Of a stretch of 64,000 bases of DNA, positions 28,943-43,291 are shown one piece after another. This stretch comes from Rothia sp. (in: high G+C Gram-positive bacteria). Its GTDB lineage: Bacteria; Actinomycetota; Actinomycetes; Actinomycetales; Micrococcaceae. Positions within the stretch are counted from its first letter, which is position 1, and the number at the start of each line of letters is the position of its first letter. Both the position numbers and the translations under genes were made by a program. Location of the stretch: the NCBI GenBank assembly GCA_030524105.1, contig JAUNHE010000005.1:124001-188000 (forward strand), written 5' to 3'. Below the pieces are notes generated by a model. It saw only the letters and a program-made list of their open reading frames with translations, searched no databases and had not been told where the DNA came from.

Positions 28943-29160
28943 TCAGCAGGGTGGGGGTGGGCTGTTTGCCCCCTTGCCTGGCTCAGAAACATTAAACATT
29001 AACAGTCAAACTAACTGAGGTTGGCCGCTTACAGACCTGTGGTCCTCGGTTGTGGCTTACGGAAGGCACGACAGGTGCAGACCGTGAACTTCAATCGAAG
29101 ATCCAAGCTCTAAGCCGGCTCAATGCTCAGCAGAAGTAGAACAAGAAGTGGAGGAACCCC

Positions 29161-34748: not shown

Positions 34749-34890
34749 GGTGAACCTTAGGTGCTCTGCGAGGGGGAGGGGCTGCGACTGTATAAGTTTA
34801 GATGCATCCGTAGCTGATGGAGCAGATTAAGGGGGTGTCTCAAAGACATTTGTGGGTAGGTGATTGGACCCTGGGTCTGCTGGCTATGAA

Positions 34891-36147
34891 CTATGAGTAA
34901 TAGTTTTTCCAGTCTTCGGTCTTCCAACCTTTGTTGTAGTTGCCGAATGTTTTTCTAAAAACAAAAATGAGAATAATAGGGAATATAAGCGAAATAAAGG
35001 AAATTAATAGAGGGGAAAAGTATAAGAATTCTTCCTTGTTGGAAGAAATTCCTGGGATTAGGAGGATAAGGTATCCCGAAAATATTCCAAAATTTTCACA
35101 GATAGAGAGCAGGGAGGAAATTCTACCTACGTTTGTTTTTGGAACTCCATCTAGCACTACAGTTTGTCCATAAAATATTAGGAGCTCAAACATGATTCCG
35201 GATAGGAGGAAAAGAAAAAGAAGGGTTATGAGAGGAACTCCGTCAAAGGTCATGCATAAGAGAGGAGCCCCAATTCCGAAAGAAGAGAAAAAGGCCCAAA
35301 ATATTTCTTTTGAGAATTGTACTTTAACCGTTAGGACGCTTCCAATGATTAACCCTATGTTGAATACCCCTACCATCCATCCCCATATTGAGGGGTTGCT
35401 TACCCGAGATATAAAGTAGTCAGCTGCGACAATTCTAAAACTTGCCAGCCAGAGTCCCCCAACCAGGGTGCCATGGAGGGCAAACCAGGGGAGCCATTTT
35501 ATTTTTAAAAAGATTTTTCCGGCATTCAGTAAATCTTTTAGGATGCCCACTTTTTTATCGTGTTTTTTATGATTTACGTCTATCTTTTGTATAAAAAGTA
35601 AGGCGGTGGCAATTATAAATGAGGGGAATAGCAACACTAGGTTATGGTTTAAGGAGCTTGTTAAGGATGCGCCTACTCCGGGGCCTAGAACGAGGGAGAG
35701 GTTTCTTAAGCTTCTTATTGTTGATACTTTATCTTTTATAGATCCTTCTGAGCCGCCGCGAATAAAAACAGAGATGGAAGGGTTCTGAACACTCGCTATG
35801 AGACCTAGTATAAAGCTCAAGAAGGCTAGCAAACTTATAGTAACATTATTAATGCTCCCAATCATAAAGCCTAGAATGACATAAATAATTATTTCTATAA
35901 TCGCTGAATATTTTATGAGCTTCTTGGCTTCTCCCCGATCTGATAGGCTCCCAGAGAAAGGTGCCAATAGAACGTTGGATAAGACCATTGCGGCAGCAAC
36001 CAGTGCAGCATAGGTTAGACTACTATTCTTTAATACGAGCAGGGTTATTGCCATGTTTGCTATAGTGGAAGCAAAATATTTTAAAGAAATAAATATTGCT
36101 AAATTTCGATAATAGTAATCGTTGAAGGTAGCTTTAAACTTATCCAT
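34891..36147 (-). CDS. MFS transporter in the AT-rich island
   Basis: This 418-residue major-facilitator protein has about 12 hydrophobic segments and motif A as GSLSDRGEAKK between helices 2 and 3. It resembles drug or peptide efflux members (macrolide-efflux-like), but the substrate is unknown. Base composition is clearly more AT-rich than the genes on either side (many ATA, TTA and AAA codons), which indicates horizontal transfer. It is the leftmost gene of the island and faces away from the bacteriocin operon. GGATTA precedes the ATG. It might export or protect against a peptide, given the locus, but that is inference. Confidence 0.8.
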   Translation of the reverse strand: MDKFKATFNDYYYRNLAIFISLKYFASTIANMAITLLVLKNSSLTYAALVAAAMVLSNVLLAPFSGSLSDRGEAKKLIKYSAIIEIIIYVILGFMIGSINNVTISLLAFLSFILGLIASVQNPSISVFIRGGSEGSIKDKVSTIRSLRNLSLVLGPGVGASLTSSLNHNLVLLFPSFIIATALLFIQKIDVNHKKHDKKVGILKDLLNAGKIFLKIKWLPWFALHGTLVGGLWLASFRIVAADYFISRVSNPSIWGWMVGVFNIGLIIGSVLTVKVQFSKEIFWAFFSSFGIGAPLLCMTFDGVPLITLLFLFLLSGIMFELLIFYGQTVVLDGVPKTNVGRISSLLSICENFGIFSGYLILLIPGISSNKEEFLYFSPLLISFISLIFPIILIFVFRKTFGNYNKGWKTEDWKNYYS

Positions 36148-36162
36148 TAAAATTAATCCTAC

Positions 36163-36330
36163 TTACCCACCTGCAACAGCAGAAATAATATACATTTGAG
36201 AAGGAGATGTTCCGGAACCCTTGTATGGAAATCGAGAATACCCTTTTCTAATTCGATGTCAGCAATTTTCCACTGTTGCGCATCCCAACCTTGGAGTAGC
36301 TCCTGAGGACTTGATGGCCTCGTAGACTCG
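36163..36330 (-). pseudogene. interrupted reading frame upstream of the MFS gene
   Basis: One minus-strand frame reads as plausible protein for 56 codons with one internal TGA (36259-36261). It begins RVYEAIKSSGATPRLG and ends GSGTSPSQMYIISAVAGG then TAA. It has no start codon of its own. It lies between the 61-aa membrane protein and the MFS gene. It may be a broken small peptide gene or chance; nothing similar is recognised. Confidence 0.2.
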
Positions 36331-36334
36331 TCAG

Positions 36335-36520
36335 CTAATCGGAGTTTTTGTCGAAGAGAGCCCAGATAAGCGAAATGAGGCCAATTACGGCGAACACGAG
36401 ACCGACCTTCGCTGGGTCTACTACACCCCATGAAATATTCTGCATGGTTAGCCAGGCTCCTCCGCCTACGACAATTGAGATGATACTCCAGAAAATTTCT
36501 TTCGATTTTTCGGCTTTCAT
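36335..36520 (-). CDS. small two-helix membrane protein
   Basis: A 61-residue protein: charged N-terminus MKAEKSKE, two hydrophobic segments (about 9-22 and 36-55), then a DKNSD tail. The start is chosen at 36520 because AAGGAAGG lies 8 nt upstream; the longer frame to 36625 has no ribosome-binding site. Size and topology are like immunity peptides or holin-like proteins, but no family is recognised. It may share a transcript with the MFS gene. Confidence 0.55.
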   Translation of the reverse strand: MKAEKSKEIFWSIISIVVGGGAWLTMQNISWGVVDPAKVGLVFAVIGLISLIWALFDKNSD

Positions 36521-37472
36521 GCTGCCTACCTTCCTTAGGAAAAAGCTTTCATCCTTAAATATAGGGGTAAGAAAAGTGAATGTAAGCTGACATGCCCAGC
36601 AACCCAGGATCAGCACCCACATCAAAATTGTCTACGCCCGCGTTCTTACCACAGACCAATATCTAGCCCCCAGTACTAGGAGGTTTATTGCGGCTTGTTC
36701 ACAAGTTCTCCCAGCTGCATAAGACACCAGCCCTCGCACCACTGCAAACACCCTAGAATATACAAGGTAAGCGGCCGTTGTCTCTTGGTGGGCGTGGAGT
36801 GCTTACCTAACTTTTGAATAAGCCTCATCGAAGACAAACGAGCTGCCTAACGAGCCAAGCAAAGCAAACAGGGCTCAGCAACCGCTGGTCGGTTCATGGA
36901 AGGAGCACGAGTTTCTGGCTGGAAACAAGCTATCAACCAGATAGCCGTAGCTTACCCCGACCGCTTTGACAAATATTTATAAATCTAGCCTCACGCACAA
37001 CAACTTGACAAGCTCAAAAAATTTGATATTCGGTCTACGACGTCGTTGCGTAGTGAGTTAAAGATTTAAGCTATGGGTTACAGTACGAAAGGTTGTGGAG
37101 CAGGCGATCAAAGAAGTAAAGGTCCATATTTGTCAATAATAAGAAGTTTTTCTAAGAGGTCCCTCAGGGCATGCAGTCGGTCCTAGCTTCATCAACCACC
37201 CAGTCAGTCGTCTCAGCCTCCACCAAATTACTGTAACAAAAAGTCAAGTCCGTACCCTCTCACCTTATTAGGAAACATTAATACCCCAACGACCTGTCAT
37301 ATAAATTTAGTCAATTTTAGCTTTGAGTTTTCAAAATTTAATATTTAACAGAAATACATCTTCCATACTGTCTATCAAGGTGCTAGAATTTTTGTGTACT
37401 CAAAATCGCATAAGAGAGTATGTATCTGCAAAATCCATCTTTTCGCATACAAAACGAAGGGAATATACTAAA
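36521..37472. other. 952-bp non-coding stretch upstream of the bacteriocin operon
   Basis: No intact gene is seen. A plus-strand frame of 43 codons (36851-36979) contains GWKQAINQIAVAYPDRF and ends in TAA; it resembles the C-terminal tail of some transposases and may be an insertion-sequence remnant (weak). The last 200 bp are very AT-rich and should hold the promoter of the bacteriocin operon; AAGGGA lies 9 nt before the precursor ATG. No regulator gene and no direct repeats marking an insertion were found. Confidence 0.4.
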
Positions 37473-37787
37473 ATGAAACAGTATAGTGCCATAAATTTGA
37501 TGACCGTTGGTTTGCTAACTACTGCCTGCATGTGCTTGGCATTTTTTGTTATGCAAGGCCTACCCCTGGCAAACATGGTAAAAGAATTCGGAATTCCCGC
37601 TGGACTGGCGGCAACTATTCTTAACATTATAGAAGCCGGTGGAGCTGTTACTACTATTCTAACGATTCTAACTGGTATTGGTTCTGGTGGGCTTAGTTTA
37701 ATCGCCGCAGCTGGTAGGGAAACAATTCGCCAATATCTTAAGAATGAAGTTAAGAAGAGGGGACGCAAGGCCGTAATCGCGTGGTAA
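37473..37787 (+). CDS. circular bacteriocin precursor, enterocin AS-48 family
   Basis: This is the precursor of a head-to-tail cyclised antibacterial peptide. The 104-residue product has a 34-residue hydrophobic leader ending GLPLAN and a 70-residue core (nt 37575-37784) starting [10 protein letters not shown] and ending KAVIAW. Aligned by hand to enterocin AS-48 from memory, about 49 of 70 core positions are identical, with no gaps. The junction residues Met1 and Trp70, the acidic Glu4, 20, 49 and 58 and the Lys/Arg-rich region 52-65 are kept. AS-48 Trp24 is Ala here. The leader is 34 residues against 35 in AS-48. AAGGGA precedes the ATG. The stop overlaps the next gene. The core helices insert into target membranes. 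Confidence 0.95.
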
Positions 37788-39634
37788 ATGAAAAATTATC
37801 CAAAAATGTTGCAGTGCGGAGCCCTAGAACCCCCGCACTGCAATACATTAATTTGAATGATATTTTATTACGACGAAGATGGGTGTCGGATCATGAGCTA
37901 AATAAAAGATTAGTTCACTCTCTCGGTATAAAAATCGGTTTTTTTGATTTATGGATGCAGGGTAAGGCCACCTTTTTGGGCCGAAGGATCTCAGTTATGA
38001 GGCAGCTACAGATTTCATTTTGTATACAAGTTCTGCTATCAGGGATATTTTGTTTCGGATTTATTAAGGCCTTCCCTAATTTATTAAACTATCCATGGGT
38101 GGGACCACTATATGTAATTGCTGTTTGTTTTATTTTAGGCATATCTTCTACACCTCGTATCTGTGCTTTTCCCTTTGAATCGATGAGTCGTTTGTCCCCG
38201 GCTACCAGTAGTATGCTCGCTAAGATACTTCTTAAGTCTGAAGTTACATACCTTTTTTATAGGAACCCAGTAATATTTTTACCGATTGGGTACGCATTTT
38301 TGATTAGGGGACTTTCCCTTAATAATCATCGACAATATGTATTTATATGGATGATTCTATTACCTTTTATCTCATTTGCCGCCATAAGATTTGGAGGGGT
38401 AATTGGAACTCTTATCCTCAAGTTCAGGGTTCTAAAAAAAACAGGGTTCAAGCGTTTTGTCACAGCATTTCTGATATCTATTGCGGCATCCATTGTAGGA
38501 TTTTTTATCTCGAATACTGTTATATTTAACTTTCTGATATCTGCACGAAGTAATGTATCAACTGTTGATCAAGTGTTGGAAGATTCTGCGTGGAATTCCG
38601 CCATGCATGATTTTTCCAATAACGTTAAAGCAGATATCTACGAAATATCAAAATTTTATTATCATTTTAATTATGTTGAATCAATTTCTACATATCCAAT
38701 TGTGTTTTTTTTGACCATTTTTATACTATTTTCTTACTTTTATCGATCAAGTATTTTGACTAAAAGGGATAGGGAAAATACGGAAGAGTTAAAAGATGCG
38801 GTTTACTTTTATCTTCTAGGAGTGTGCAAGTTCGTTAAACCTTTTGGTTATATTAACGTTGCTTTGGCTAGGAATATGCTCAAAAACCGATGGGTAGTCT
38901 CAAAATATTTTTGGTTTCTCATACTTCCGAATCCAGAGTCCTCTTTTATTCTATCTTTTGCTTTAGGAATTATAAATTTTTCATCAAACGAATGGTTAAT
39001 ATTACTAACTATTAGTATAGTTTCCGTCATGGTAATAAATATTCAGATGAGTGAAATAATTTATGAATTAATGCCCACGGTGGGGGTTGCTAGCATTCAA
39101 AAAAGACTCAGATGGCTGCTTCTAACCCCGGAGCTAGAGGGAATAAAATCTGAAGTATGTGCACGTAAGACTGTTACTGGCGTTTTCTTGTTTCCATCTT
39201 CATCTATTTTTATATTAATTACTTCCGTATTTTTAGTATATAAAAATTTTTCAATTGCATTATTAGCAATTTATCTACTGGTAGTAATAATAGCATTCTT
39301 TCTTGCAGTGGAAACTCAATGGTATATGGCTCCTCTGTTAATGGTTCAGACAAGAAGTGAGAGGGACTATGAGCAAGGATTGGGATCAGCTTCTGAGACT
39401 CTACGAAGCAAGCTTCAAGGTATTCCTAGACTCTGGTACATAGTCATACCATCATATTTTGTATTAGGACTTAATATCTTAGGCTCTTTAATTCCTGAGA
39501 TTGTTACAGTTGTTTGTACTTTTATATATATAATATTACTTTTTTTCTGTTTCTTCATTCTTAAATATATTGGAAACAAAATTATATTAAAAATAGGTAG
39601 CAAAGGATTGGATGTATCTTATGCCAATAGCTAA
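37781..39634 (+). CDS. large membrane protein for bacteriocin maturation/export (AS-48B position)
   Basis: The 617-residue polytopic membrane protein has about 12 hydrophobic segments and AT-rich codon use. It takes the place of as-48B, whose product (about 560 residues) is needed for AS-48 maturation and secretion; the molecular step, cyclisation or translocation, is not established. The start is GTG inside the last codons of the precursor gene (7-bp overlap), which implies translational coupling. The family assignment rests mainly on size, topology and gene order. The long soluble loop at about 255-305 has no recognisable motif. Confidence 0.8.
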
Positions 39635-40160
39635 ACAGAAAAATTGGGTTAGGAACACTTTAATCTGCAGCAGTTTGTTTTTTTGTTTGGGATTATTATA
39701 TGGTTTCTTTTCAGTGCAGCTAAATCTAAACATTAATGATCTTACTCCTGAAAGTAGCTCTTCTTCTATGGCAGCGATAGCCCAAAATAACCTTATTTTT
39801 GGAGCCTCATTACTAGTATTAGGTATCGTTTCTTTTTGTGTGATACCTATGATTCTCTTATTTCTAAACGGTTCATTAACGGGTGCGGTGGTATTTGCTG
39901 TATTTTCAGGGGGACACCATGAAACTTTGGTAACTGGTCTTTTACCCCATATTTTGTTTGAAGTATACGGATTTTTTCTTATAACTTCCTCTTCTATAAT
40001 TCCAATAGAATTAGCATTACTATCCGTTTCTCATAAATATTTGAGTAAAGATTATATTAAAACTAGCTCTTTATATTTTATGAGATTAATACTATCCGGT
40101 ATATTTTTTATCATTGTAGGTGTATTTATTGAAGGAAATTTTAGTTATGTTAAATTTTGA
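39612..40160 (+). CDS. DUF95/SpoIIM-family membrane protein (AS-48C-like)
   Basis: This 182-residue membrane protein is of the stage II sporulation protein M family (DUF95), a constant partner in circular-bacteriocin loci. The family mark is LPHILFEVYGFF (near residue 115), together with a conserved Asn in AQNNLIFG and FLNGSLTG. It has about five hydrophobic segments. The start is at 39612: AAAGGA lies 4 nt upstream, and the gene overlaps the end of the B gene by 23 bp. It contributes to production and immunity in the AS-48 system. Confidence 0.85.
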   Translation: MYLMPIAKQKNWVRNTLICSSLFFCLGLLYGFFSVQLNLNINDLTPESSSSSMAAIAQNNLIFGASLLVLGIVSFCVIPMILLFLNGSLTGAVVFAVFSGGHHETLVTGLLPHILFEVYGFFLITSSSIIPIELALLSVSHKYLSKDYIKTSSLYFMRLILSGIFFIIVGVFIEGNFSYVKF

Positions 40161-40710
40161 CAGGGGATATAGTAGTACTCAACAAAAGTTGTGTAAGATA
40201 AATGATAAATATTTTCTGACGATGCGCGGGAGATTTTATTTCTTTATTTCTACATTACTTTTGGTAAGTATTTCATATTTTATAGTTGAATTTTATTTAG
40301 TAAAAAATAATATAATTGAGATTGAATCTACTGTTGTGGCAGCGATTGTGGGCCTTCTATTTGTGCTCCCCTTGTTTGTTTCCGTCAGTTTTATTTTAAC
40401 TTGTTTTGCGGGGGCGATCGCGAGTCTTTATAAGAGACCATTTAGTCTCAGGAACCTCTTTATCTGCATTTCCTTTTATTTATCTGTTTTATCGGTGGTC
40501 AATGCTGCCTCTTATTTATTTGCGCTTGAAACTGATATTTCAATTTTAGTTACAGTTATTTCGTTCCTTCTAAACATCATTTTAATTTTATTATTTAATA
40601 AATATGCACCCCAATTTTCTGGTATCTCTTGCGGAGCGAGCTTAACTATTTCTATAATTATGATTATATATTTATTTTTAACAACATTTGTAGGTGCTTC
40701 CATTGTCTAG
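40147..40710 (+). CDS. membrane protein (AS-48C1 position)
   Basis: The 187-residue protein has five or six hydrophobic segments and no motif I recognise. It sits where as-48C1 lies, and together with the following ATPase it probably forms an ABC transporter, being its membrane partner. The start is at ATG 40147 because AAGGAA lies 9 nt upstream; a GTG at 40120 would lengthen it by nine residues. It overlaps the C gene by 14 bp and the ATPase gene by 17 bp. Confidence 0.75.
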   Translation: MLNFDRGYSSTQQKLCKINDKYFLTMRGRFYFFISTLLLVSISYFIVEFYLVKNNIIEIESTVVAAIVGLLFVLPLFVSVSFILTCFAGAIASLYKRPFSLRNLFICISFYLSVLSVVNAASYLFALETDISILVTVISFLLNIILILLFNKYAPQFSGISCGASLTISIIMIIYLFLTTFVGASIV

Positions 40711-41329
40711 CTTAATTATAAAAAGTATTAATTATCAATACCCAGGTTCCCAGGTTAATATATTTGACGGTTTTAGCGAAATATTTGAAACTGATAAATT
40801 ATATAGATTAGTAGGACCGAATGGGGCGGGTAAAACGACACTATTGGAACTGATAGCCGGCCTAAGAAAACCTAAAAATGGTGAAATAACTTTAGGAAAT
40901 TATCCAATTATGCGAACTGATGTTTCTTACTTATCTTCTGAATCATCTCTTGTGCCTGAATTAAACATAGAAGAACATCTTGGCCTTATTGCCACCTTAT
41001 GGAAAATGACTGAGGATAATTTGAGGGAATTTTATAGGGACTGCTTCGAGCTTCTAGAAATGTTTAATCTTTTATCTAGAAATGATACTGTTGATAACTT
41101 TTCTTTAGGGATGAAGGAAAAATTAGATTTTTTATTAACGATCTCCCGCCCTAGTAAAGTAATTTTACTTGATGAGCCCTTCGGTGCACTTGATCTTCCT
41201 TCTCTTAACTTGGCTCAAAAGGTGCTAATGGAGTATACTAAAAATAAAGTTTGTATAATTGTTACCCATAGGGATGAAATAGTCTCTCCTCTAGTAGTAA
41301 CAGAAATACCTATTGAAAGGAATGTGTAA
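40694..41329 (+). CDS. ABC transporter ATPase of the bacteriocin locus (AS-48D-like)
   Basis: This 211-residue ATP-binding subunit has Walker A GPNGAGKTT, the degenerate signature FSLGMKEKLD (LSGGQ not standard), Walker B VILLDEPFGALD and the switch histidine in IVTHRDE. It resembles as-48D, which with C1 serves secretion of the peptide, with a contribution to self-protection. The start is GTG 40694 or TTG 40703; both overlap the C1 gene. The non-canonical signature is typical of bacteriocin-immunity ATPases. Confidence 0.85.
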   Translation: MLPLSSLIIKSINYQYPGSQVNIFDGFSEIFETDKLYRLVGPNGAGKTTLLELIAGLRKPKNGEITLGNYPIMRTDVSYLSSESSLVPELNIEEHLGLIATLWKMTEDNLREFYRDCFELLEMFNLLSRNDTVDNFSLGMKEKLDFLLTISRPSKVILLDEPFGALDLPSLNLAQKVLMEYTKNKVCIIVTHRDEIVSPLVVTEIPIERNV

Positions 41330-41331
41330 TT

Positions 41332-41496
41332 ATGAAAAAATATGATTTAACCATTGGAATACTTTCTATTATTGGGATAATTGCAGCGGTATTTTTTATT
41401 GGTTTAGAAGTAATGCCAGGAAAAATTTTATTAGCAATGTCCGCAGCTTTTGCCTCATCGGCTATACTTCATTTATTTTCCCCGAGGGAAAAATAA
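41332..41496 (+). CDS. 54-aa immunity-like peptide (AS-48D1 position)
   Basis: A 54-residue, two-helix basic membrane peptide: MKKYDLTIG, hydrophobic segments at about 7-26 and 32-50, and the tail SPREK. It starts 2 bp after the ATPase stop, with AAAGG 11 nt upstream. Size (as-48D1 is 56 residues), topology and place match the dedicated AS-48 immunity peptide, and the conserved order A-B-C-C1-D-D1 supports the call. Because it is shorter than 60 codons it is easily missed in automated annotation. Confidence 0.85.
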   Translation: MKKYDLTIGILSIIGIIAAVFFIGLEVMPGKILLAMSAAFASSAILHLFSPREK

Positions 41497-41578
41497 GTAA
41501 AGCTTATCTATAGAGGACAAAACCCACAACCCCTGCCTCGCCAGGTCTACTCCGACTGTCCTATCTGAATAAGTTTAC
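41497..41578 (+). terminator. imperfect 22-bp inverted repeat after the bacteriocin operon
   Basis: The left arm 41497-41519 and right arm 41557-41578 match in inverted orientation with about two gaps/mismatch clusters (shared blocks GTAAA, CTTAT, ATAG, AGGACA). A short CCTG...CAGG hairpin lies in the 37-nt loop. It begins one base after the stop of the immunity gene. It may be the operon terminator or the remains of a small mobile repeat. Confidence 0.5.
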
Positions 41579-41702
41579 CGTTGGTAGTAAATAGTAATGA
41601 AAAGGTATTGTCAAATACGATACTTAATATTTTCTTTCCTAAAACACAACTTAGGCCAACCTGCAAAACTGATCTCCTACATAGTTCGACAGGAATAATA
41701 TT

Positions 41703-42422
41703 TTGAACCCACTTATTCTTGGAAAAAATCTAGTAAAAAAATTTCCAAACAAGACAAAACCTGCAATTAATAAAGTAAATTTAACTATTTGCTCGGGGGA
41801 GATTATAGCTGTTGTTGGCCATAATGGTGCAGGGAAAACAACCCTTTTTGACCTAGTTAGCGGATTCACCCTCCCCAGCTCGGGAACACTAGCAATTAAT
41901 ATCGACCGGTCAAAAATAGGATGGTGCCCCCAGCGCGAAATAATTGACTGGTCTCTTACAGTGCGCCAAAATATCTCCCTAGGTCTAGAAATCAGGCAAA
42001 GAAAGCTCCGAAAACAAACTAGCTCAATAATTGAAGAAGTTGCCACAACACTGGGATTAAGCAACTATATGGATAAAACTGCTGAAACATTATCTGGTGG
42101 AGAACTACGACGAACACAAATCGCGCGAGCAATTGCAGGAAACCCCCAATTAATGATTCTTGACGAACCTACCACCGGCCTAGACCCGGAAGGCATAGAA
42201 GCTGTTTTTAAATACCTCGATGATTGCAGAAAACAAGGATCCACTGCCCTGATAAGCACCCACGAAACCTCTAGATTCTCCAGCCACTGCACACGAGTAA
42301 TTGCTATCAACGAGGGAAAGATAATTGCCGACTTACCCATTGAAAAATACTTAAAACTATACCCAGGTTTAACTGAAGACCTTTGGGATGTTTATAGACA
42401 TATTAGAGAAAGAACCTTCTAA
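41703..42422 (+). CDS. ABC transporter ATPase, ABC-2 type
   Basis: This 239-residue ATPase has Walker A GHNGAGKTT, the standard signature LSGGELRRTQ and Walker B LMILDEPTTGLDPEG. It resembles drug/antibiotic-resistance ABC-2 ATPases. It starts with TTG at 41703, with AGGA 8 nt upstream. The following permease overlaps the stop (TAATG), so the two form one transporter. Composition is intermediate between the bacteriocin genes and the core. It stands where AS-48 has the EFGH immunity transporter, but is not homologous to that four-gene set. A second immunity or export system is a reasonable inference. Confidence 0.85.
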   Translation: MNPLILGKNLVKKFPNKTKPAINKVNLTICSGEIIAVVGHNGAGKTTLFDLVSGFTLPSSGTLAINIDRSKIGWCPQREIIDWSLTVRQNISLGLEIRQRKLRKQTSSIIEEVATTLGLSNYMDKTAETLSGGELRRTQIARAIAGNPQLMILDEPTTGLDPEGIEAVFKYLDDCRKQGSTALISTHETSRFSSHCTRVIAINEGKIIADLPIEKYLKLYPGLTEDLWDVYRHIRERTF

Positions 42423-43153
42423 TGCTGCGTCCTCTTATCCTTATAAAATTCCATTTTCTATCCTTATGGAACTGGCGTAGTTCATACCTGGGTCGATTTA
42501 TTGAACCCGCCGCTTACCTGCTCTTCCTGTCCACAGGGCTCCGCAACTCCCTGGAAGGAAAAATTGCCAGCTACAGTGAATTTGTTCTAGCCGGGTTAGT
42601 ATGCTTACTGGCATTCCGTGCAGCAACAACAAGCATAAGTGATGTCGCCAATGACAGAAAATGGGGTGTTTTAGCTCTATACATACTTCAAGGTGGATCA
42701 ATTGCAGGGTATATAATCAGTATCGTCATTTTTGGGTCATTAATATTTATAGCTCAATTTATTCTTCTATTCTTTTGCTCTATTTTAATATCTCCAGAAT
42801 CTTCAGTAGATATATTTAGAATGTTAAATTTACTAGGCCTAGGAATATTATTCGTAACAGGCTGGTGCGGATTCGGCGCAGCTCTAGGAGGAAAAATTGA
42901 CTCCTACGCAAAACGTGACTTTGTGGTTACTGTGACTTCCCTCCCAGTAGTCTTTACAGCCCCCTTGTTCTACCCTATTCAAGGAAACTGGCTTGCAACA
43001 GTCGCAGCCCTAAACCCCCTAACCTACCAAGTTAGTATTCTCAGACAGCCCAGTACCCTAGGCTTTTTACTTGCCCTCACCTGGGCAGCCGTCGGAATTA
43101 TAAGCTCCACCATAATGCTCAGTAAAACTTCGCACCTCAGCCAGGAACGATAG
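42422..43153 (+). CDS. ABC-2 type permease
   Basis: The 243-residue permease has six hydrophobic segments and shows the ABC-2 pattern, with conserved-looking FEPAAYLL-like IEPAAYLLFLSTGL near the first helix and PLTYQVSILRQP near the last loop. It is translationally coupled to the ATPase upstream (TAATG). The substrate is unknown; given the neighbours, expulsion of a membrane-active peptide is possible. The same frame continues for 37 codons after its TAG, probably without meaning. It is the last gene of the island before dapB. Confidence 0.82.
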   Translation: MLRPLILIKFHFLSLWNWRSSYLGRFIEPAAYLLFLSTGLRNSLEGKIASYSEFVLAGLVCLLAFRAATTSISDVANDRKWGVLALYILQGGSIAGYIISIVIFGSLIFIAQFILLFFCSILISPESSVDIFRMLNLLGLGILFVTGWCGFGAALGGKIDSYAKRDFVVTVTSLPVVFTAPLFYPIQGNWLATVAALNPLTYQVSILRQPSTLGFLLALTWAAVGIISSTIMLSKTSHLSQER

Positions 43154-43291
43154 ACCGATTATATTTATGACCCAGCCTCGCCCAATATTCAGCTCAAGCT
43201 TAAAAAAGATCTGAAGAAAGACGCTAAAGTTGGCAAGGACAAAGAATCTGGGCTGGCCTTGGAACAGCCCTAGCAAAGGCAGGAAAGATAG

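Follow-up and report, generated by a model that had tools for sequence, protein, structure and literature searches.

Enterocin AS-48/BacA is encoded on the Enterococcus faecalis plasmid pPD1 (NZ_KT290268), and six genes are reported to be indispensable for AS-48 (PMC6131525; PMC7132975). An AS-48-like cluster with a precursor identity of 71.3% was reported in 2023 (PMC10456417) from Arthrobacter sp. APC 3897 (BioProject PRJNA883941), an actinobacterium that seems to belong to the family of the genome studied here. We analyzed a 64,000-nucleotide stretch of a Rothia sp. contig (JAUNHE010000005.1), referred to here as the window, and compared the AS-48-type locus that it carries with these and other relatives.

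The six-gene locus and its AS-48 counterparts

Six compact open ORFs occupy positions 37473–41496 of the window in the AS-48 order A-B-C-C1-D-D1, with overlaps at A-B, B-C, C-C1, and C1-D and a spacing of 2 nt between D and D1. The first-pass annotation had claimed a six-gene locus in this order, and every ORF is indeed open where it was placed; comparison with the as-48 locus likewise found A-B-C-C1-D-D1 counterparts on pPD1, in the same order. All six AS-48-indispensable genes have counterparts here, in order, including the SpoIIM/DUF95 gene, with B and C1 recognized by weak pairwise similarity and position. Assignment to the AS-48 type is supported, and none of the six reported essential AS-48 genes is missing.

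Gene A (37473–37787, + strand) encodes a circular bacteriocin precursor of 104 aa, composed of a leader (residues 1–34) and a core (residues 35–104), and a purine-rich stretch, AAGGGA, lies upstream of its ATG. The precursor scores 78.9 bits with TIGR03651, the circularin A/uberolysin family profile (cut-off 30.7), and 46.2 bits with PF09221 (cut-off 23.6). The 70-residue core (MVKEFGIP...KAVIAW; 37575–37784, + strand) has a predicted circular mass of 7245.5 average and 7241.14 monoisotopic. It is identical to the AS-48 core encoded on pPD1 at 49/70 positions, which bears out the earlier hand-counted figure of about 70%, and AS-48 chains in the PDB were matched with a phmmer E-value of 2.7e-28. 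A saposin-like fold of the ring is likely, because the core shares 70% identity with AS-48 of solved structure (1e68).

Residues described as features of this family in PMC5695211 are kept in the alignment. These include the C-terminal aromatic residue, Trp70; Glu at core positions 4, 20, 49, and 58, which belong to the charged plane; and, in the leader, Leu at −5, Pro at −4, and a polar Asn at −1. Core position 1, where Met or Leu is expected, is Met. The leader is 34 residues long, versus 35 in AS-48 of pPD1, and position −8 is Met in both the window and G353, a genome from another genus of the same family, versus Leu in the LxxLP motif reported for the long leaders of this subfamily. Core position 24 is Ala in the window and Trp in AS-48; PMC5695211 reports Ala at this position in pumilarin, which is active.

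The machinery encoded on pPD1 is 25–41% identical to that of the window. B (37781–39634, + strand) is a large membrane protein of 617 aa with 10 hydrophobic segments, 26.1% identical to the pPD1 protein (z 13.5 above shuffled sequences); tblastn of B against plasmids gave no match, pPD1 included, which shows how far B has diverged. C (39612–40160, + strand; 182 aa) is a SpoIIM/DUF95 membrane protein, as the first-pass annotation had proposed, with a PF01944 domain (E 3e-16, 60.2 bits versus a cut-off of 26.9) and 29.3% identity to its pPD1 counterpart. The membrane protein C1 (40147–40710, + strand; 187 aa) is assigned to As-48C1 on the strength of its position and a weak similarity (25.0% to the pPD1 ORF, z 8.3 over shuffles), and neither B nor C1 matched a family in Pfam or NCBIfam. 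D (40703–41329, + strand; 208 aa) is an ABC transporter ATPase (PF00005, E 1.8e-21) with 35.1% identity to As-48D. The putative immunity peptide D1 (41332–41496, + strand; 54 aa), which had also been picked out as D1-like, contains two hydrophobic segments and is 40.7% identical to D1 of pPD1 (z 11.9 over shuffles), with a sub-threshold Pfam match only in the profile search. Residues that are invariant across the compared loci are all present in the window core and machinery; in C, positions N59, N86, H113, E117, and E174 are invariant in six loci, and in B, positions such as W371, E386, E531, and R550 are invariant in five.

The surrounding island

The locus is positioned within a foreign island (approximately 34,749–43,291) between an acyltransferase gene and dapB, whereas pPD1 is a plasmid typed as mobilizable. 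The GC content of the island is 0.31–0.45 per kb versus about 0.50–0.58 nearby, and GC3 is 0.22–0.40 in island genes versus 0.49–0.62 in the eight flanking genes measured. The acyltransferase-dapB gap is 8.5 kb in the window genome; among 18 congeners inspected it is 23–339 bp in 17 and 1,016 bp in one, and a precursor relative was found in 0 of 34 congeners. Among 20 of the 39 direct repeats and 25 of the 37 inverted ones, none convincingly flanks the island. Upstream of A, an MFS exporter gene (34891–36147, − strand; PF07690, E 2.4e-18) has a GC content of 0.384, and repeat debris at 36688–36827 looks like the terminal 3' part of a transposase gene. Positions 36688–36780 match C10:174975–175066 at 91%, and positions 36773–36827 match the termini of contigs C3 and C9 at 85–86%; the C10 ORFs that match the debris are presumably transposases of IS5 type.

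Downstream of D1, an ABC ATPase (41703–42422, + strand; PF00005, with the DrrA model TIGR01188 below cut-off) and its partner ABC-2 permease (42422–43153, + strand; PF01061, 34.4 bits versus 26.9, with DrrB TIGR01247 below cut-off) form a two-gene exporter. The ATPase has 30.1% identity to As-48G of pPD1 and 25.6% to its As-48D, the level of generic ABC ATPases, and the permease has no similarity to As-48H; these two genes hold no recognizable counterpart of the non-essential as-48EFGH accessory immunity operon, in whose position pPD1 does carry genes. The pair at 41703–43153 is possibly an accessory exporter. A dedicated immunity role was considered and is weakened, because a 63% homologue of the permease occurs in one of 34 congeners (G031), in which no precursor was found.

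We assign a rough probability of 0.87 to the reading that the island holds a functional AS-48-type circular bacteriocin operon, with production predicted from its sequence. An unlikely alternative is that the genes are complete and silent or sub-functional in this host, the island having landed there but lacking a functional promoter or complete immunity. The promoter scan gave 18 sites versus a mean of 22.0 in shuffles, with none that stands out, and the terminator scan was not above shuffles; the upstream transposase-like debris and the lack of a recognizable EFGH counterpart point in the same direction. Against this, the six ORFs are all open and tightly packed, and the invariant residues are kept in both core and machinery. 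Nor is the missing EFGH region proof of silence, because homologues of D1EFGH are reported in PMC5695211 to be frequently undetected in clusters for circular bacteriocins.

Relationship to other AS-48-type loci

We compared six loci, namely the window, G353, and four Bacillota loci, Neobacillus among them. The highest core identity to the window, 52/70, was found in a pumilarin-type locus from Bacilli (G1028), which shares the Ala at core position 24 and whose B, C, C1, and D are 25–29% identical to those of the window. A Listeria innocua plasmid locus (NZ_CP124265), with IS6 transposases close by, has a core identity of 51/70, a D1 identity of 43%, and B, C, C1, and D identities of 27–33%, where B is an annotated piece only. 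The G353 locus has the full A-D1 order, with 47/70 core identity (67%) and 23–30% machinery identity to the window; its precursor is identical to AS-48 at 75/105 positions, a value close to the 71.3% given for Arthrobacter sp. APC 3897, and the two may be of the same type. It differs from the window in the GC content of B–D (0.525 versus 0.331) and in having putative HlyD-, ATPase-, and permease-like ORFs downstream, which the window lacks. Given the complete G353 locus and the APC 3897 cluster (PMC10456417), a claim of "first in actinobacteria" would be wrong; the window locus is a fresh example of an already known AS-48 kind. A search of viral contigs and phages found no relative. Over the 15 pairs of six loci, mean identity is 67% for the core and 25–34% for B, C, C1, and D; for D1 it is 34% over 10 pairs.

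The first-pass annotation had envisaged a close AS-48 relative that crossed phyla. The foreign island in an actinobacterial chromosome agrees with part of this claim, but closeness to AS-48 is limited to the core and does not extend to the machinery. A recent transfer with Enterococcus or one of its near Bacillota relatives as the donor would fit the low GC and the core, which shares 70–74% identity with the Bacillota cores other than that of Neobacillus (46%). However, the machinery is only 23–43% identical to that of the five comparison loci, and in each of the five pairs formed with the window, core sites that share a residue use the same codon no more often than expected by chance, so that no recent cross-phylum transfer of AS-48 itself is seen. 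Together with the 25–41% machinery identity to pPD1, this makes a recent gift from Enterococcus very unlikely. A swap of the precursor alone between loci was rejected, as none of the nine pairs involving the window or G353 has an excess of shared synonymous codons; among the six remaining pairs, a mild excess is seen for Enterococcus-Listeria (30/55 versus 23.2 expected, p 0.032).

The all-gene tree, in which the window does not fall among the four Bacillota loci, also argues against recent transfer, though rooted trees do not settle the point. In unrooted trees of six loci, the window and G353 are split from the Bacillota loci with support of 100 for all genes, 100 for B, 81 for D, and 84 for C1, and A and C alone place the window weakly with Neobacillus (64 and 56). 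Five-locus AU tests on all genes and on B retained only the window and G353 together; the SH test also retained four other arrangements, two of them without this pair, and tests on A or D alone gave no decision. With outgroups, C alone grouped the window and G353 (84), a pair that fell within the Bacillota loci with low inner support; C and D together paired them at 57, and in the tree of D alone the window joined a different type of bacteriocin (65). The all-gene unrooted trees suggest that the window stands apart from the sampled Bacillota loci, while single-gene and outgroup trees do not settle this; the trees point to no firm donor. An old AS-48 branch in this actinobacterial family, separate from that of Bacillota, with a ring peptide that changed far less than its machinery and with the window and G353 loci as its two examples, is a tentative reading that we consider rather doubtful.

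Proposed working and implications

For a functional operon, the product is most likely a head-to-tail cyclized, membrane-permeabilizing bacteriocin of about 7.24 kDa with its own immunity, where cyclization, pore formation, and immunity are modeled on work with AS-48 and pumilarin. A would be made with its 34-residue leader, and a predicted membrane complex of the ATPase D with B, C1, and the DUF95 protein C would take off the leader, close the 70-residue chain between Trp70 and Met1, and export the resulting ring. The producer cell would be shielded by D1, and the cationic ring would bind and permeabilize the membranes of Gram-positive competitors. The operon itself derives from a low-GC background, and recent arrival on an AS-48 plasmid of enterococci is very unlikely. 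Sequence cannot reveal cyclization or killing, but the terminal residues, Trp70, and the DUF95 gene match characterized circular bacteriocins, and export of a linear peptide for signaling or another role instead of killing is scarcely credible.

Among the papers inspected in our search of the Rothia literature, none reported a circular bacteriocin, and the window adds a second divergent AS-48-type locus for one actinobacterial family, here in a small-genome host. Across the compared loci, conservation is higher in the core peptide than in its machinery, and the comparison therefore narrows the cyclization step to a small set of positions that can be tested. If the reading of an old branch were true, the few invariant machinery residues would mark the site that cleaves the leader and closes the ring, since similar cores are processed by machineries that differ greatly.

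Organization of the locus and its predicted peptide

The AS-48-type locus comprises six open frames on the plus strand at 37473–41496, encoding A (104 aa), B (617 aa), C (182 aa), C1 (187 aa), D (208 aa) and D1 (54 aa). Adjacent genes overlap, save for D and D1, which are spaced by 2 nt, and the likeliest start codons are GTG for B and TTG for D. The A precursor scores above the cut-offs of TIGR03651 and PF09221, and profile searches place C above the SpoIIM/DUF95 cut-off and D above that of ABC_tran. B, C1 and D1 are 26, 25 and 41% identical to their counterparts on pPD1, the Enterococcus faecalis plasmid encoding the AS-48 locus (z 13.5, 8.3 and 11.9 against shuffles, respectively). The gene order is that of as-48ABCC1DD1, a set described as indispensable for AS-48 in two reports (PMC6131525; PMC7132975). 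The first-pass annotation had proposed six genes in this order, with a DUF95 protein, a 54-residue D1-like peptide and a core about 70% identical to enterocin AS-48, all of which held; the 70-residue core is identical to the pPD1 peptide at 49/70 positions.

The entire core aligns with the AS-48 chains of the PDB (E 2.7e-28). Alignment of the precursor shows retention of Met1, Trp70 and the Glu residues at core positions 4, 20, 49 and 58, as well as Leu −5, Pro −4 and a polar residue at −1 in the leader; position −8 is Met, whereas the reported motif has Leu there. Core position 24 is Ala. The Trp24Ala substitution in AS-48 is reported to raise the MIC sharply, yet pumilarin, which naturally carries Ala24, is described in the same source as active (PMC5695211), so Ala24 does not point to inactivity. 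The predicted ring has a net charge of +5 and a mass of 7245.5 (average) or 7241.14 (monoisotopic).

A low-GC island between an acyltransferase gene and dapB

The locus is positioned within an island (~34,749–43,291) of distinct composition, with GC per kb of 0.31–0.45 over 35,001–43,000 versus ~0.50–0.58 in the neighbouring kilobases, and GC3 of 0.22–0.40 in the island genes versus 0.49–0.62 in the eight flanking genes measured. This composition indicates a low-GC source for the locus. The host gene order at the site is pnp, M16 peptidase, acyltransferase, dapB; an Actino-pnp RNA leader upstream of pnp (29038–29106), the sole Rfam match in the window at the gathering threshold, is consistent with an actinobacterial host.

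The peptidase gene and dapB are present in 35/35 genomes of the genus, this one included. They lie 10.4 kb apart here, compared with 2.2–2.5 kb (n = 18), 3.7 kb (n = 4), 4.6–6.9 kb (n = 4) and 19–28 kb (n = 4) in the 30 congeners with both on one contig, and are on separate contigs in 4 congeners. The acyltransferase–dapB stretch was inspected in 18 of those 30: the gap is 8.5 kb in the window genome versus 23–339 bp in 17 congeners, with 1,016 bp in the other (G001), where the acyltransferase is matched at just 33% across 375 residues. In the 17 short-gap congeners, bigger inserts lie at the opposite side of the acyltransferase. That adjoining peptidase–acyltransferase interval is a variable hotspot. 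It spans 19–28 kb in four congeners, and in the three of them inspected (loci L040, L041–L042 and L043–L044) peptide synthetase-like ORFs of >1,000 aa were seen by eye.

The sequence at 36688–36827, ~650 bp upstream of A, matches the 3′ end of an apparent transposase elsewhere in the same genome, as well as sequences at two of its contig ends, and is thus probably a mobile-element remnant. No tRNA was found across the 64-kb window. Where the island is otherwise poor in genes, it carries a small hydrophobic-looking minus-strand ORF (36335–36625; sub-threshold DUF5708 match, E 0.017). Elsewhere in the genome (contig C10, locus L053, 3653–6832), four minus-strand ORFs adjoining the transposase-like remnant perhaps form another bacteriocin or immunity module; by eye, they encode a CPBP-protease-like protein alongside membrane proteins and an ABC ATPase.

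Distribution and relationships

No relative of the precursor was found in 34 congeners and 64 other relatives. Across overlapping genome samples, the locus type exceeds the TIGR03651 cut-off in 2/395 genomes of the family, this one and G353, of another genus, with sub-cut-off matches in a further 15. The window precursor used as query against 396 genomes of the phylum recovered, apart from its own genome, a single weak match at 28%, and a five-row profile against 396 genomes of the order returned its own genome and one weak match, G353 not being among the matches. The same profile gave 11 matches in 398 genomes of the class containing Neobacillus, two of them strong: the Neobacillus itself (G822) and G1028, a Bacilli genome with a pumilarin-type locus. 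One scan of genome contigs yielded the one Neobacillus locus, and none was added by the 193 genomes of the family to which that organism belongs, its own included. At E 1e-5, relatives occur on 2/72,556 plasmids, pPD1 and a Listeria innocua plasmid.

A second, commoner putative circular bacteriocin type occurs at 16 loci (L007–L022) in 15 genomes of the same family. Its precursors are short and fall below the TIGR03651 cut-off, with PF09221 exceeded in the 2 tested; a SpoIIM-like gene adjoins the precursor place in 13/16 loci, and in the 12 of 13 aligned, the PHxxxE motif keeps its Glu but has its His replaced.

Published actinobacterial cases include an AS-48-like cluster in Arthrobacter sp. 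APC 3897, a strain that inhibits Listeria (PMC10456417), two circular bacteriocin precursors from Actinobacteria (PMC8534725) and five circular bacteriocin clusters in propionibacteria (PMC5695211). Among the open-licence PMC papers listed, none was seen to describe a circular bacteriocin in Rothia; six other clusters are given for Rothia dentocariosa (PMC10668837).

The window core is identical to the four nearest cores at 47–52/70 positions and to that of Neobacillus at 32/70. Codons were compared at core positions where both members of a pair carry an identical residue, the expectation being taken from each gene's own codon use. Identical codons number 16/45 with G353, 14/50 with Listeria, 18/51 with G1028 and 11/31 with Neobacillus, and all five pairs, Enterococcus included, are at the expected level, so that the likeness is old and maintained by selection on the protein. 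A recent cross-phylum transfer of enterococcal AS-48 is thus not supported, identical codons with Enterococcus (22/47) being at the expected level and the machinery 23–43% identical to that of the five comparison loci.

With all genes of the six loci combined, the unrooted tree separates the window and G353 from the four Bacillota loci (bootstrap 100), as do B (100), D (81) and C1 (84) singly; the single-gene trees of A and C instead group the window weakly with Neobacillus (64 and 56). In five-locus AU tests on all genes and on B, the window–G353 pair is the sole arrangement retained, whereas the SH test retains four further arrangements, two without the pair, and tests on A alone or D alone are not decisive. 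With other circular-bacteriocin loci as outgroups, C alone recovers the pair at 84, nested among Bacillota loci with inner support of 31–69, C+D recovers it at 57, and in the tree of D alone the pair is lost. Long branches may attract in these trees, and a separate window–G353 branch is suggested by them but not settled.

Proposed function

An ABC pair at 41703–43153 may serve as an additional export or immunity system, a role reported for EFGH in AS-48 (PMC6131525). A 63% homologue of its permease occurs in one congener (G031), in which the precursor search gave no match and no AS-48 gene was seen by eye in the 16 kb surrounding that homologue, which makes a dedicated role for the pair in the bacteriocin uncertain. 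Near that homologue (locus L073, 11422–15515), a helicase-like gene and ATPase/nuclease-like ORFs resemble, by eye, a Gabija defence pair.

The cutting, closure and secretion of circular bacteriocins are described as not fully elucidated (PMC10028692). By analogy with AS-48, the six genes would most likely serve to produce a cationic peptide, process it, cyclise it, export the ring and render the host tolerant of it; the ring most likely would permeabilise Gram-positive membranes.
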